From Oscillospiraceae bacterium (GTDB lineage Bacteria; Bacillota; Clostridia; Oscillospirales; CAG-272): 64,000 nt of DNA. The notes beneath the pieces are model-generated. The model worked only from the letters and a program-made list of their open reading frames with translations. It had not been told where the DNA came from and made no database searches. Shown piece after piece: positions 15,286 through 20,725 of the stretch (position 1 is the stretch's first letter; each line of letters opens with the position of its first letter). A program made the translations under genes and the position numbers. The DNA lies in assembly GCA_015064155.1 (NCBI GenBank), contig SVST01000010.1, positions 1 through 64,000 on the forward strand, given 5' to 3'.

Positions 15286-15660
15286 GTGGGGGAAACTTTT
15301 TAAAAAAAGTTTCCCCCACACCCCTTTCAAAAACTTTCACAGCATTTTTTGTATGTGAGAGTTTTTATTTTTTTGTATCGAACTTCGATATACTGCCGTT
15401 AGCCGTCAGGTACCGCCACCCTGACGGCTCTGCCGTGGGGCGCGCGAGGATGCGGTTTGTGGGGGCGCTTTTGAAAAAGCTCCCACAAACCCCCGCAAAA
15501 CTTTCACAGCATTTTTTGTATGTGAGAGTTTTTATTTTTTTGCATCGAACTTCGATATACTGCCGTTAGCCGTCAGGTACCGCCACCCTGACGGCTCTGC
15601 CGTGGGGGGCGCGAGGATGCGTTTTGTTGGGGAAACTTTTGATAAAAAGTTTCCCCAACA
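15286..15660. repeat. Hairpin-repeat island: two 124-bp direct repeats (period 167 bp) alternating with three long hairpins
   Basis: Direct repeats 15331-15454 and 15498-15621. Hairpins GTGGGGGAAACTTTTT/AAAAAAAGTTTCCCCCAC (15286-15319), TTTGTGGG...CCCACAAA (15456-15489), TGTTGGGGAAACTTTT...AAAAGTTTCCCCAACA (15625-15660). Confidence 0.9.
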
Positions 15661-15740
15661 CCCCTTTCAAGAACCTTTCAAGCAACAGATCCTGCATATA
15701 TCCGATCGGATTTTGCAGGATCTGTTTTTTCTATCGTTTA

Positions 15741-16133
15741 TCAGGAGATTCTTTTATACACCAGGCTCTTTTTATGCCATAAACCGTCAATGGTTGGACT
15801 TTCAATGGTCAGCGTATCCTCTGCCAATATCAGTGTCCCTATAAATCGATTTTTACTCTCTTGAAAATATCCATTTTTTGCGCCCAGCAAGGAAAGCTTG
15901 TTTCCCGTCATTTTCCAGTAACCTATTTCCTGATAATTTACCCAGCAGGTTCCGTCCTCGTAAAAAACAATATGCGTTTTATCGACATCCCCACTCTCCG
16001 GTTTCCACACCCCGATTAAAGCTTTCTCAATCTCTGTGCTTTCGTCCACTTTCTTTACACACGCCGATAGGACACATACACAAAAAATCGTCAACCATAG
16101 TGCAAGCAATAAAACAAACACTCTCTTCATCAC
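15741..16133 (-). CDS. Predicted small lipoprotein (lipocalin-like C-terminal strand pattern)
   Basis: N-terminal lipobox LSAC; 130 aa; SD AGGAGAAA at 16138-16144. Confidence 0.65.
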   Translation of the reverse strand: MMKRVFVLLLALWLTIFCVCVLSACVKKVDESTEIEKALIGVWKPESGDVDKTHIVFYEDGTCWVNYQEIGYWKMTGNKLSLLGAKNGYFQESKNRFIGTLILAEDTLTIESPTIDGLWHKKSLVYKRIS

Positions 16134-16144
16134 TGATTTCTCCT

Positions 16145-16178
16145 AAAATAAAAAGTGCGCCGACCGAAGCCAACGCAC
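16145..16178 (-). terminator. Intrinsic terminator (attenuator position) ahead of the lipoprotein
   Basis: Minus-strand GTGCGUUGGC-UUCG-GUCGGCGCAC-UUUUUAUUUU. G.U pairs form only on the minus-strand RNA. Confidence 0.75.
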
Positions 16179-16203
16179 AAAAAATACATAGCTCCATTTG
16201 TCG

Positions 16204-16323
16204 CCAAACAAAACCTTTTATACAAACCCTAAAGCATGTGCAAAAGAAGAGCATCTGTATTTTTATCAAAAGATAAAAATACCCATGCTTCGGGTTTTTA
16301 TTCATTATTCGGTTTTGTTTGGC
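16204..16323 (-). ncRNA. Candidate rod-shaped structured RNA / leader
   Basis: Nested complementary arms: 16204-16215 with 16311-16322 (12 bp), 224-229 with 292-297 and 232-238 with 284-290 (add 16000), 16257-16267 with 16272-16282 (11 bp). Confidence 0.6.
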
Positions 16324-16329
16324 AAGATT

Positions 16330-16358
16330 ATTATACCACAAAAAAGAATGTTTGTAAA
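16330..16358 (-). promoter_or_regulatory. Promoter of structured RNA / lipoprotein
   Basis: Minus strand TTTACA (16353-16358)-N17-TATAAT (16330-16335); predicted TSS about 16323, at the edge of the closing stem. Confidence 0.75.
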
Positions 16359-16500: not shown

Positions 16501-16540
16501 GGAGGGGAGAGGGACTTTTGCAAAAGTCCCTCTCCCCTCC
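16501..16540. terminator. 40-bp perfect palindrome downstream of the hydrogenase operon
   Basis: GGAGGGGAGAGGGACTTTTGCAAAAGTCCCTCTCCCCTCC reads identically on both strands. Confidence 0.6.
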
Positions 16541-16561
16541 ATAAAACATTCCTACCTCAAA

Positions 16562-18331
16562 TTATTTCTCGGTAAACGCAACTCTTGCAGCGTAGGTGGT
16601 GTGCAAAAGTTCGTGAGCCTTGTGAGAGTTGGGCTCGCCCAAGAAATTCTCGTAAAGAGCCTTGATCTGGGGGTTGTTGTGGCTCTGTCTTACGGTCTGT
16701 CTTTCGTCCTCAGAGTAGAGCGCAGCAGCTCTCTTTGCCTTAAAGGTATCCAGAATATCTGCATCCTCGTTGGGCAGGAACTGGGGCTTCACGAAAGGCT
16801 GACCGCCGCCCGCGATACAACCGCCGGGGCAACCCATGATCTCGATGAACGCATACTTGCTCTTGCCTGCGCGAATGTCGTCAAGCAGAACCTTTGCGTT
16901 CTTCATACCGTGTGCAACGGCAATCCAAAGCTTGGTACCGTTGATATCGATCTCGGCTTCCTTGAGTCCGTCGAAGCCGCGAACAGCCTCGAACTTCACA
17001 AGTCCGTGCTCCTTGCCGGTGAGTGCAAAGTAAGCAGTTCTGAGAGCCGCCTCCATAACACCGCCGGTTACACCGAAGATAACGCCGGCACCGGTGTAAT
17101 CACCAACGAGGTCGTTGTCGAACTCTTCATCGGGAAGCTTTGTAAAGTCGATACCCGAACGCTTGATCAGCTTACCAAGCTCTCTGGTGGTCAGAACTGC
17201 GTCAACGTCCTTCAAACCGTTGGTCTTCAGCTGATCTCTTTCCTTCTCGTACTTCTTAGCAGTACAAGGCATGATCGAAACCACGAACATATCCTCGGGG
17301 TTCACACCGATTTCCTTTGCATAGTAATGCTTCAGGATCGCACCGAACATCTCGTGAGGAGATTTGCAGGAGGACAGATGACCCAACAGATCGCCATAGT
17401 TGATCTCCGCATAGTTGACCCATCCGGGCGAGCAGGAGGTAATCATCGGCAGCTTGCCGCCGTTCTTGATTCTGCCAAGCAGCTCGGTAGCCTCTTCCAT
17501 AATGGTAAGGTCTGCCGCATAGTTGGTGTCAAATACCTTTTGGAAGCCAAGGCGCTTCAGTGCCGCAACCATCTTGCCGGTTACGGGAGTACCGATCTTC
17601 ATGCCGAACTCCTCACCGAGTGCTGCTCTGACTGCGGGCGCGGTCTGAACAACAACGTACTTGCCTGCCTTCATTGCCTCGTCAACCAAAGCAATTTCGG
17701 ACTTCTCCATCAATGCACCGGTGGGACATACGCTGACGCACTGTCCGCAAAGGATACAAGGAGAATCTGCCAAGGATCTGTTCTCAGCGGGAGCCACGAT
17801 GGTGTTGAAGCCTCTCTTCTCGAATCCGAGAACACCCTTGCCGTGTGCATTCTTACATCTTTCCACGCAACGGCCGCACAGCACGCACTTGGAGGTATCT
17901 CTCACGATAGAGGGCGTGATCTGGTCAACGGTAACGGGCGTTTGAGAACCGATGAATCTATCCTCACGTGCGCCGGTTACTTTCGCTACGTGCAACAGCT
18001 CGCAGTACTCGTTCTTGTCGCACTGCTGGCACTTCATGGAGTGGTTGGAGAGCAACAGCTCTACCGATGCGCGTCTTGCCGCAACAGCCTTGGGAGAGGA
18101 AATGATGATTTCCATACCCTCGTTTACGGGATAAACGCAGGATGCAACCAATCCGCGCGCGCCCTTTACTTCAACCAAGCAAACGCGGCAGGAGCCTCTG
18201 GAGCATTCGCCGTTGTTGAACGCGCAAAGAGTGGGAATATTGTAACCGCATTGCTTTGCGGCATCCAGAATGGTCATTCCCTCTTCAACCTGATAGGAAA
18301 TGCCTTCGATTTTAATATTTACTTTTGCCAT
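16562..18331 (-). CDS. hydA: [FeFe] hydrogenase catalytic subunit (trimeric, NAD(P)-linked/bifurcating type)
   Basis: H-cluster motifs TSCSPGW, MPCTAKK, MGCPGGCIAGGGQP; N-terminal 2Fe-2S and two 4Fe-4S (CVLCGRCVERC, CILCGQCVSVCP). Start MAKVNIKIEG at 18331. Confidence 0.95.
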   Translation of the reverse strand: MAKVNIKIEGISYQVEEGMTILDAAKQCGYNIPTLCAFNNGECSRGSCRVCLVEVKGARGLVASCVYPVNEGMEIIISSPKAVAARRASVELLLSNHSMKCQQCDKNEYCELLHVAKVTGAREDRFIGSQTPVTVDQITPSIVRDTSKCVLCGRCVERCKNAHGKGVLGFEKRGFNTIVAPAENRSLADSPCILCGQCVSVCPTGALMEKSEIALVDEAMKAGKYVVVQTAPAVRAALGEEFGMKIGTPVTGKMVAALKRLGFQKVFDTNYAADLTIMEEATELLGRIKNGGKLPMITSCSPGWVNYAEINYGDLLGHLSSCKSPHEMFGAILKHYYAKEIGVNPEDMFVVSIMPCTAKKYEKERDQLKTNGLKDVDAVLTTRELGKLIKRSGIDFTKLPDEEFDNDLVGDYTGAGVIFGVTGGVMEAALRTAYFALTGKEHGLVKFEAVRGFDGLKEAEIDINGTKLWIAVAHGMKNAKVLLDDIRAGKSKYAFIEIMGCPGGCIAGGGQPFVKPQFLPNEDADILDTFKAKRAAALYSEDERQTVRQSHNNPQIKALYENFLGEPNSHKAHELLHTTYAARVAFTEK

Positions 18332-18344
18332 GATCGTTTCCCCC

Positions 18345-20246
18345 TTACTTCTTCTCGATTGCCTGAATCTTCTTACAAGAAGACATGCAGAGTCCGCACT
18401 TGATACACTTGGTCTGATCAATTCTTCTGGAAGGAAGCTTGTGACCGGGTGCAACGTAATCGGTCTTAACAATCGCGTTTACGGGACACTGTCTTTCGCA
18501 AAGTCCACAGCCGATACACTTGTCCTCGTCGATGACGTAAGACATCAAATTCTTACATACCTTTGCAGGGCACTTCTTGTCCACGATGTGAGCGATATAT
18601 TCATCTCTGAAATGCGCCAGCGTGGAGAGAACGGGGTTTGCCGCGGTCTGACCGAGTGCGCACAAGGAACCGGTTTGAATGGTACGACCCAGCTCCTCCA
18701 GCTCCTCCAGATCCTGCATGGTAGCCTTACCGTCGGTGATCTTGGTCAAGAGCTCCAACAGACGCTTGGTACCGATACGGCAGGGAGAGCACTTACCGCA
18801 GGACTCGTCGCAAATGAATTCCATATAGAACTTCGCAACGTCAACCATGCAGTTGTCCTCGTCCATAACGATCGCACCGCCCGAGCCCATCATCGAGCCC
18901 TTTGCTACCAGCGTATCAAAGTCGATTACCGAATCCAGATCCTTTTCGGTCAAGCATCCGCCCGAAGGACCGCCGGTTTGAATTGCCTTAAACTTCTTGC
19001 CGTCGGGAATACCGCCGCCAATTTCATAAATCAGCTCACGCAGAGTGGTACCCATGGGGATCTCCACAAGACCTACGTTGTTGATCTTACCGCCAAGCGC
19101 GAACACCTTGGTTCCCTTGGACTTTTCGGTACCGTACTGAGCAAACTTCGCAGCGCCCTCACGCAGAACGTAGGGAACGCAAGCCAAGGTTTCTACGTTG
19201 TTTACGATGGTGGGAGAATCCCAAAGACCCTTTACTGCAGGGAACGGAGGACGCGGTCTGGGCATACCTCTCTTACCCTCAATAGAGTTCAGCAGTGCAG
19301 TTTCCTCACCGCAAACGAACGCACCCGCACCAAGACGGATATGTACGCGGAAGCTGAAATCGGTTCCCAAAATGTTGTCACCGAGAAGTCCCAGCTCTTC
19401 TGCCTGCTTGATCGCCAATCTCAAACGGTTTACGGCAATCGGATACTCTGCACGAACGTAGAAATAACCGTTCTGTGCGCCGATTGCGTAGCCTGCAATA
19501 ACCATACCCTCGATAACCGCCAAGGGGTTACCCTCGAGGATCGATCTGTCCATGAACGCGCCGGGGTCACCCTCGTCACCGTTACATACAACGTACTTTG
19601 CACCCTCGGGCTGTGCGTAAGCGAACTGCCACTTTCTGCCCGTGGGGAATCCGCCGCCTCCGCGGCCTCTCAAGCCGGAATCAAGCACTTCCTTGATTAC
19701 GTCGGCTCTGTCCATCTGCAATGCTCTTGCAAGACCCAGGAATGCACCGGTACCCAGTGCTTCTTCAATATTTTCGGGATCGATCGCGCCGCATCCGTGC
19801 AGCGAGATACGAACCTGCTTCTTGTAGAACTCGATCTCATCCTGCTTTACGACCTTTTCCTTGGTCTTAGGGTCAACGTAAAGCAGACGGTCAACGATCT
19901 CGCCGCCGATCAGATCCTTTTCGATGATCTCCTCAACGTCCTCCATCTTGACCAAACGGTAAAGGGTATCCTCGGGATAGATCTTTACGAAGGGACCCTG
20001 AGAGCAGAAGCCAAAGCATCCGACCTGGTTTACGGTAACCTTATCGGAGAGACCCTTCTCTTCTACCAGCTTCTCAAACTTTGCCTTGATCTCCAAGGAG
20101 TTGGAAGAAATACAGCCGGTACCGCCGCAAAGCACAACGGCTCTTTTGCCGCTGCCGCCCGCGATCTTTTTACCGAAGCGATCCGCGCAAACCGAACATT
20201 TCGCAGAAAGCTCTTCATAATTCTTAATCTTTTCCATATCCGTCAA
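18345..20246 (-). CDS. hydB: NuoF-like subunit of NAD(P)-linked [FeFe] hydrogenase
   Basis: GLRGRGGGGFPTGRKW, ESCGKCSPCRIGT, C-terminal 2x[4Fe-4S] CIGCGLCERQCP / CIKCGLCMSSC. Confidence 0.95.
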   Translation of the reverse strand: MTDMEKIKNYEELSAKCSVCADRFGKKIAGGSGKRAVVLCGGTGCISSNSLEIKAKFEKLVEEKGLSDKVTVNQVGCFGFCSQGPFVKIYPEDTLYRLVKMEDVEEIIEKDLIGGEIVDRLLYVDPKTKEKVVKQDEIEFYKKQVRISLHGCGAIDPENIEEALGTGAFLGLARALQMDRADVIKEVLDSGLRGRGGGGFPTGRKWQFAYAQPEGAKYVVCNGDEGDPGAFMDRSILEGNPLAVIEGMVIAGYAIGAQNGYFYVRAEYPIAVNRLRLAIKQAEELGLLGDNILGTDFSFRVHIRLGAGAFVCGEETALLNSIEGKRGMPRPRPPFPAVKGLWDSPTIVNNVETLACVPYVLREGAAKFAQYGTEKSKGTKVFALGGKINNVGLVEIPMGTTLRELIYEIGGGIPDGKKFKAIQTGGPSGGCLTEKDLDSVIDFDTLVAKGSMMGSGGAIVMDEDNCMVDVAKFYMEFICDESCGKCSPCRIGTKRLLELLTKITDGKATMQDLEELEELGRTIQTGSLCALGQTAANPVLSTLAHFRDEYIAHIVDKKCPAKVCKNLMSYVIDEDKCIGCGLCERQCPVNAIVKTDYVAPGHKLPSRRIDQTKCIKCGLCMSSCKKIQAIEKK

Positions 20247-20725
20247 GCCTCCATTTTACGGTATTCCTCAACGACAGCGGGAACATCCGATACTTTCAGT
20301 TTGGGGTAAACCTTACCGTTGATGGTTACAGCGGGAGCGATACCGCAAGCGCCGATGCAACGGAGAGCGTCAAGCGTAAACATACCGTCCTCGGTGGTTC
20401 CGCCGGGAGCGATGTTCAAAAGCTCGGAGAACTTATCGATAACCTGCTGTGCGCCCTTGACGTAGCAAGCGGTACCGAGGCAGCAACCGATTACGTATTT
20501 TCCCTTCGGCTGAAGAGAGAAGAAAGAGTAGAAAGTAACAACGCCGTATATTTCGGCAACCGAAATACCGGTTCTTTCAGATACGATTTCCTGTACTTCA
20601 AGAGGAATATATCCATACTCTTCCTGAATCGCAGACAAAATCATCATCAAAGGGGTTTTTTCATCAACGTATCTGTCACAGATCTCGTTGATTTTGGCAA
20701 TTGATGCGTCACTTAAGCGGGCCAT
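20243..20725 (-). CDS. hydC: NuoE-like 24 kDa [2Fe-2S] subunit
   Basis: VTFYSFFSLQPKGKYVIGCCLGTACYVKGAQ; LRCIGACGIAPAV. Overlaps hydB start by 4 nt. Confidence 0.94.
   Translation of the reverse strand: MARLSDASIAKINEICDRYVDEKTPLMMILSAIQEEYGYIPLEVQEIVSERTGISVAEIYGVVTFYSFFSLQPKGKYVIGCCLGTACYVKGAQQVIDKFSELLNIAPGGTTEDGMFTLDALRCIGACGIAPAVTINGKVYPKLKVSDVPAVVEEYRKMEA

Follow-up and report, generated by a model that had tools for sequence, protein, structure and literature searches.

A candidate attenuation leader RNA with a covarying pseudoknot and a promoter-fixed 5' end, present in multiple copies in one order of gut Clostridia

The stretch of DNA analysed here, 64,000 nucleotides from an Oscillospiraceae bacterium and referred to below as the window, carries on its minus strand what is, judged from its sequence, one copy of an unlisted RNA family of ~180 to 260 bases, located in front of a predicted lipoprotein gene. 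Members of the family are present in 20 bacterial families within a single order, a genome carrying as many as 13 of them; the family is common in metagenome assemblies from the ruminant gut and has no entry in Rfam 15. Comparison of homologous copies brings out the structure of the RNA, its alternative pairings, the coupling of its 5' end to a promoter, its adjacency to genes, and its distribution. The members are probably cis-acting leader RNAs that work by transcription attenuation, and the window copy would accordingly control the lipoprotein. Its parts are the following:

16330 to 16358, minus strand: promoter TTTACA-N17-TATAAT with an extended-10 TG (TTTACA at 16358-16353, TATAAT at 16335-16330)
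16311 to 16323, minus strand: 5' arm of helix P1, GCCAAACAAAACC; G16323 is the predicted transcript start
16305 to 16310, minus strand: conserved junction GAATAA after the P1 5' arm (at this place 73% of copies have AATA and 95% have ATA)
16284 to 16297, minus strand: 5' strand of P2/P3, AAACCC-G-AAGCATG (sequence and MFE fold)
16257 to 16282, minus strand: local hairpin GTATTTTTATC/GATAAAAATAC, which excludes the pseudoknot (MFE fold; conserved in short-type copies)
16249 to 16266, minus strand: pseudoknot strand within the P3 loop (A-U-AAAAAUACAGAUGCUC), partner at 16195-16179 (covariation)
16224 to 16238, minus strand: 3' strand of P3/P2, CATGCTT-TA-GGGTTT (sequence and MFE fold)
16203 to 16215, minus strand: 3' arm of P1, GGTTTTGTTTGGC; pairs 0-10 are 98-100% canonical in 170 copies
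16196 to 16202, minus strand: conserved single-stranded joint GACAAAU (family consensus GACAAUY)
16179 to 16195, minus strand: tail GGAGCTATGTATTTTTT, the 3' partner of the pseudoknot (covariation)
16145 to 16178, minus strand: intrinsic terminator with a 10-bp stem, UUCG loop and T-rich tail (UUCG in 142 of 170 copies)
16140 to 16144, minus strand: Shine-Dalgarno sequence (SD) AGGAG of the downstream gene (sequence)
15741 to 16130, minus strand: predicted lipoprotein MKRVFVLLLALWLTIFCVCVLSAC..., 129 aa, ATG at 16130, the gene after the terminator

The window promoter matches 11 of 12 consensus positions in addition to its extended-10 TG, and after TATAAT come AATCTT and then G16323, with which the closing helix P1 begins. 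An initial annotation had described a rod-shaped structured RNA at this place, with a minus-strand TTTACA-N17-TATAAT promoter giving a start at about 16323, the nested helices AAACCC/GGGTTT, AAGCATG/CATGCTT and GTATTTTTATC/GATAAAAATAC, and a UUCG terminator 5' of the lipoprotein SD, and all of these elements are present. The MFE of the RNA is -65.5 kcal/mol compared with -38.5 ± 4.0 kcal/mol for dinucleotide shuffles (z = -6.8; 0 of 200 as low). The terminator at 16178-16145 is made up of the stem GTGCGTTGGC-TTCG-GTCGGCGCAC (16178-16155) and a T-rich tail (16154-16145), and the SD occupies 16144-16140. Covariation of the arms in homologues, whose absence the same annotation had named as speaking against its proposal, is found as described below and favours a real RNA. 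That description does not include the pseudoknot that the P3 loop (16266-16249) forms with the tail following P1 (16195-16179). Taken by themselves, the promoter and terminator counts are not above chance within a single window, and it is because they are conserved across 170 homologous copies that they are convincing.

Searching 35 genomes of the genus at the DNA level located copies in 26, with the matches strongest over the 3' part of the RNA. Once oriented, the copies share a layout that begins with the promoter, P1, variable arms, and a conserved GRYAAAA strand, and continues with the 3' arm of P1, the GACAAUYGGAG tail, the UUCG terminator, an SD, and a start codon. Distribution was counted with R1, a covariance model for the 62-nt 3' module. 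Because R1 derives from close copies and prefers terminators like theirs, the following counts are lower bounds. R1 matches 31 of 35 genomes in the genus with at most 13 copies per genome (seven in the window genome), 120 of 196 genomes and 56 of 71 genera in the family, and 98 of 295 genomes in the order, where by our own count 20 of the 26 GTDB families sampled are represented. Across the phylum, a draw of 399 genomes returned the window's own genome alone, with none of the 398 others matched. An exact pattern run against a named genome collection matched 70 stretches, all of them in records whose titles read Clostridia, Clostridiales, Oscillospiraceae, Firmicutes or uncultured bacteria. Almost every one of these records is marked as metagenome-assembled, and most are named after ruminant gut samples; the genomes seen by name are all metagenome assemblies or uncultured isolates.

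No family of Rfam 15 reaches the gathering threshold in the region of the RNA, in a permissive scan of it as well, and nine homologous loci also gave no family match, their sole hit being an unrelated SRP RNA. The family was found neither in Rfam nor in the open literature searched; an earlier survey with 16,482 motif models may hold an unnamed listing of it (PMC8040213).

Structural analysis made use of the 170 distinct copies that have enough upstream sequence. Most of the P1 pairs 0-10 show compensatory changes, with GC/CG/TA/AT and AT/CG exchanges. The 5' arm of P1 was picked as the best complement in each copy, and independent support for this helix therefore comes from its fixed distance to the promoter. 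In the 35 aligned short-type copies, the first 8 P1 pairs are 100% paired, and 5 of them have changes on both sides. The pseudoknot is formed by the P3-loop strand AAAAAYGCA..CUCC, which pairs with GGAG..UGCRUUUUU in the tail after P1. When P1, the pseudoknot, and the terminator are considered together in these 35 copies, 98.4% of cells are paired and 13 of 23 pairs carry two-sided, compensatory changes, a level reached by 0 of 500 shuffles; sliding the same pairs by 1-3 columns as a control leaves 30-67% paired. The clearest single covariation signal is that between the purine 5' of the pseudoknot A-run and the base after the U-run of the tail, which are G-C in 111 sequences, A-U in 30, G-U in 0 and A-C in 4 (Fisher p = 4e-27); these cells are counts of sequences and not of independent events, and the change occurs in both short and long types. 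The pseudoknot strand is enclosed by a P3/P2 helix in 150 of 154 copies (median 28 bp compared with 9 in shuffles). The interiors of the copies are strongly diverged in sequence from one another. The GGAG of the tail is unlikely to be a real ribosome site, since in divergent copies (L073_1336, L166) it and the loop strand covary. A putative U-A-U triple helix involving the conserved upstream U tract was also considered.

The 5' end of the RNA appears to be fixed by its promoter. A promoter that matches at least 9 of 12 consensus positions is present in 161 of 170 copies, compared with 19% of mononucleotide-shuffled upstream stretches. In 159 of these 161 promoter-bearing copies, the end of the -10 hexamer lies either 6 nt (141 copies) or 7 nt (18 copies) from the first base of P1, which places the predicted transcript start at the start of the helix. 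At the other end of the RNA, the UUCG loop given above is accompanied by TGCG in the stem in 91% of copies. The terminator sequence is itself unusually conserved, an estimate that is somewhat inflated by the preference of R1 for similar terminators.

The strand in the P3 loop has a second partner. In short-type copies, the window's included, it also pairs with an upstream strand (GUAUUUUUAUC/GAUAAAAAUAC) in a local hairpin whose helix 1 is 92.7% paired in the 35 short-type copies, with 15 cells changed on both sides and a covariation score reached by 0 of 500 shuffles. Long-type copies contain a comparable GAAUUUG/CAAAUUC hairpin, seen by eye. As the loop strand has two conserved partners that are mutually exclusive, the RNA should be able to switch its fold. 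Before any knot penalty, the pseudoknot state lies below the nested MFE in 97-100% of copies, and its mean advantage is 7.5 kcal/mol in the short type and 8.7 kcal/mol in the long type. In the window copy the difference between pseudoknot and nested fold is merely -0.6 kcal/mol, making the two nearly equal.

A constitutive promoter, a leader, a terminator, and an SD in succession are the usual layout of attenuation control. The copies have what such an attenuator or riboswitch calls for, namely a covarying structured RNA upstream of genes, an intrinsic terminator that separates the leader from the gene, and, in the short type, conserved pairings that are mutually exclusive (hairpin or tail). 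Of the two readings put forward in the initial annotation, 6S RNA and a riboswitch or attenuator, the second is the better. Under the attenuation mechanism, a constitutive promoter of the sigma-A type would make an RNA whose first base closes P1. The RNA would then fold in the order P1, P2, P3, and the P3 loop would pair with the tail downstream of P1 to give a pseudoknot that may stack against the strong UUCG terminator. The SD lies a few nt 3' of this terminator, so the gene would presumably be made by read-through alone. Alternatively, the loop strand would pair within the local hairpin, and the choice between the folds, set by a ligand, a protein, or the rate of folding, may decide how often RNA polymerase passes the terminator. 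The frequency of passage would in turn control the lipoprotein. Switching would thus control termination and a specific signal would trigger switching.

As no antiterminator strand was found, the attenuation step of this mechanism is one that we infer. The terminator 5' arm of a copy fits its own leader no better than it fits the leaders of other copies, and the 3' arm gives a weak signal with its own leader in short-type copies alone (p = 0.015, uncorrected); apart from this weak signal, classical exchange between terminator and antiterminator strands is not seen. Pairing of the leader with the ribosome-binding site (RBS) of its own gene gave no copy-specific signal either. Without a terminator-breaking strand or a fit to the RBS, the remaining routes are an effect of the folded RNA on RNA polymerase, a bound factor, or an RNA that is itself the product. 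About a dozen of the 170 copies (L028, L014, L017, L027, L030, L089 and L095 among them) have (C)ACCGAAAAA.. just 3' of the terminator, a complement of the tail and terminator foot GUUUGCGUUUUUCGGUG that would enlarge the terminator hairpin in the read-through RNA. As an element of the family, this tail complement (CACCGAAAAACGCAAA, in L028 and about a dozen of the 170) was rejected for want of a family-wide signal, and is treated as a feature of a lineage.

Among systems that are already known, the family works most like an attenuator leader or an orphan riboswitch candidate. Such RNAs share with it a constitutive promoter, a structured leader that has conserved joints as well as a pseudoknot, and an intrinsic terminator followed directly by an SD and gene. 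The family differs from leader attenuators in that no exchange between terminator and antiterminator was detected, the terminator sequence is conserved, the predicted start is locked to the first base pair, and the targets are varied surface proteins rather than the genes of one pathway. We tentatively suggest, with rather less confidence than in attenuation as such, that the family is a new class of switching leader that controls scattered genes for surface and secreted proteins in one order of gut Clostridia. In this class the 5' end, the strand-exchanging pseudoknot, and the terminator would form one device that lacks a conventional antiterminator. This device would be either a riboswitch that acts on RNA polymerase in a new way or a cellular antiterminator made of nascent RNA. 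With two conserved competing helices and no antiterminator strand, the family would be a direct test case for the influence of a folded nascent RNA on a terminator.

The genes that follow the RNA bear on whether it acts in cis. Over 90% of assessable copies have a gene after them on the same strand. Among the 154 assessable copies, an automatic call assigned an SD-bearing ORF on the same strand to 132, with the start codon at a median of 25 nt past the end of the model, and most of the 22 copies missed by this call have a gene by eye, often with an SD of the GGGGG type. Clear exceptions with no clear gene after the RNA include L120 and L138, and L146 and L165 are apparently broken; these four may be decayed units. 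Lipoprotein-like proteins make up 38 of 154 downstream proteins compared with 31 of 450 background ORFs (p = 3e-8), and an N-terminal hydrophobic segment is present in 89 of 154 compared with 116 of 450 (p = 2e-12), both called by simple sequence rules rather than by a trained predictor. Pfam searches of 132 downstream proteins returned BspA-type LRR domains in 21, along with zinc ribbons, SHOCT, AMP-binding domains, and collagen repeats. The surface protein family TIGR02167 (PARCEL repeat-containing) accounts for 13 of the 132, and its underlying PARCEL repeat has been described as horizontally spread (PMC2996958). The downstream genes have no shared single function by which to name a ligand. 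The genome collection contains no relative of the window lipoprotein, which also lacks a Pfam match at the cut-off; in the 34 other genomes of the genus it has two partial hits, both marginal. The protein is nearly without relatives, which makes the leader better conserved here than its gene. If the family does control the display of lipoproteins and BspA-type proteins in uncultured gut Clostridia, a signal would be linked to their surface-protein repertoire.

A small cysteine-rich family (..GVELxPGEPTVCLGNGEQGFECCCDECDYYLLCFPEF) is encoded repeatedly 3' of the RNA (L035, L054, L076, L077, L085, L143, L154 and L164), with no family name found for it in the result tables. Eight copies belong to tandem units. 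In these, two or three complete promoter-RNA-terminator units stand 250-400 nt apart before one gene (L143, L180, L141, L142, L171, L032, L073), and the first unit feeds no gene directly.

The alternative that survives best is that the locus mainly yields a stable small RNA, terminated and protected at its ends, which acts in trans on mRNAs or a protein, the downstream gene being co-transcribed by read-through. The pairing of the 5' end from its first base at a fixed distance from the promoter, the strong conservation of the terminator, the tandem complete units, and the compact pseudoknot fold would all suit such an RNA. It is nevertheless unlikely, as a free small RNA would have no need of the same-strand gene that nearly all copies have within tens of nt, no copy-specific pairing to the adjacent RBS is found, and the divergence of the interiors leaves few shared regions that could pair with targets.

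A lower probability still, roughly half as high, goes to a processive antitermination RNA resembling put or the EAR element, in which the nascent RNA would bind RNA polymerase and bring about read-through of the adjacent terminator. In HK022, putL is located immediately after its promoter, with pairing that begins at A3 (PMC9378689), and both the fixed promoter-proximal position of the present RNA, with its first base pair at +1/+2, and the failure to find a strand-exchange antiterminator are in keeping with this idea. The HK022 put RNA and the EAR element are likewise promoter-proximal cis RNAs that precede a terminator. However, put RNAs are ~70 nt long and consist of two stem-loops (PMC9378689), the sequence and fold of the family are unrelated to those of put or EAR, and many targets look, by inspection rather than by count, like short single-gene units instead of the long operons that would call for processive antitermination.

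The family could also be a mobile or selfish cassette of promoter, RNA, and terminator that duplicates before accessory genes with no regulatory role, as its multiple copies, its varied and often orphan neighbours, and its tandem units might suggest. We hold this to be very improbable, since many compensatory changes over 20 bacterial families indicate long selection on structure and the neighbouring genes are biased; in addition, two exact patterns found no match in viral contigs, which also counts against a phage origin.

ToxI of the type III toxin-antitoxin systems is a pseudoknot RNA with a terminator and then a gene, and shares tandem units with the family. ToxI repeats are short and precede toxN, whereas each RNA here is a single one of ~180-260 nt and not a tandem array of short pseudoknot repeats before a gene of the toxN/abiQ type. 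Neither its fold nor its neighbours are those of ToxI: the genes that follow encode lipoproteins, LRR surface proteins, zinc-ribbon membrane proteins, and others. The 25 commonest Pfam families of the 132 downstream proteins do not include ToxN. Membership of the ToxI group was rejected on RNA size, arrangement, and the lack of ToxN among these commonest families.

The initial proposal of 6S RNA, which drew on size (~180 nt) and an irregular double-stranded rod, has practically no probability left and is refuted as far as sequence allows, given that the 6S covariance model RF00013 has no match at the gathering score in the window or in a permissive scan of the region, that a separate 6S-like locus exists in the same genome, and that neither multiple copies, a covarying pseudoknot, nor a position before genes is a feature of 6S RNA. 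That other locus (C23:30191-30404, L208) is a full-length match of 42.6 bits (E = 2.4e-7). It falls just short of the gathering score (46.4) and is probably the real 6S RNA of this genome.

Long, near-perfect intergenic palindromes flank the RNA-gene unit at 16502-16541 and 15621-15672 of the window, consisting of ggaggggagagggacttttgcaaaagtccctctcccctcc and a gggg..aaacttttt..aaaagtttcccc repeat, and they account for spurious microRNA matches in the Rfam scans. Beyond them, at 16565-20725 on the minus strand, is an operon for an NAD-linked [FeFe] hydrogenase (HndA/C/D-like), for whose large subunit other genomes of the genus carry homologues of merely ~49% identity, so that a comparison of orthologous sites beside the hydrogenase genes yielded no readable site lacking the RNA.
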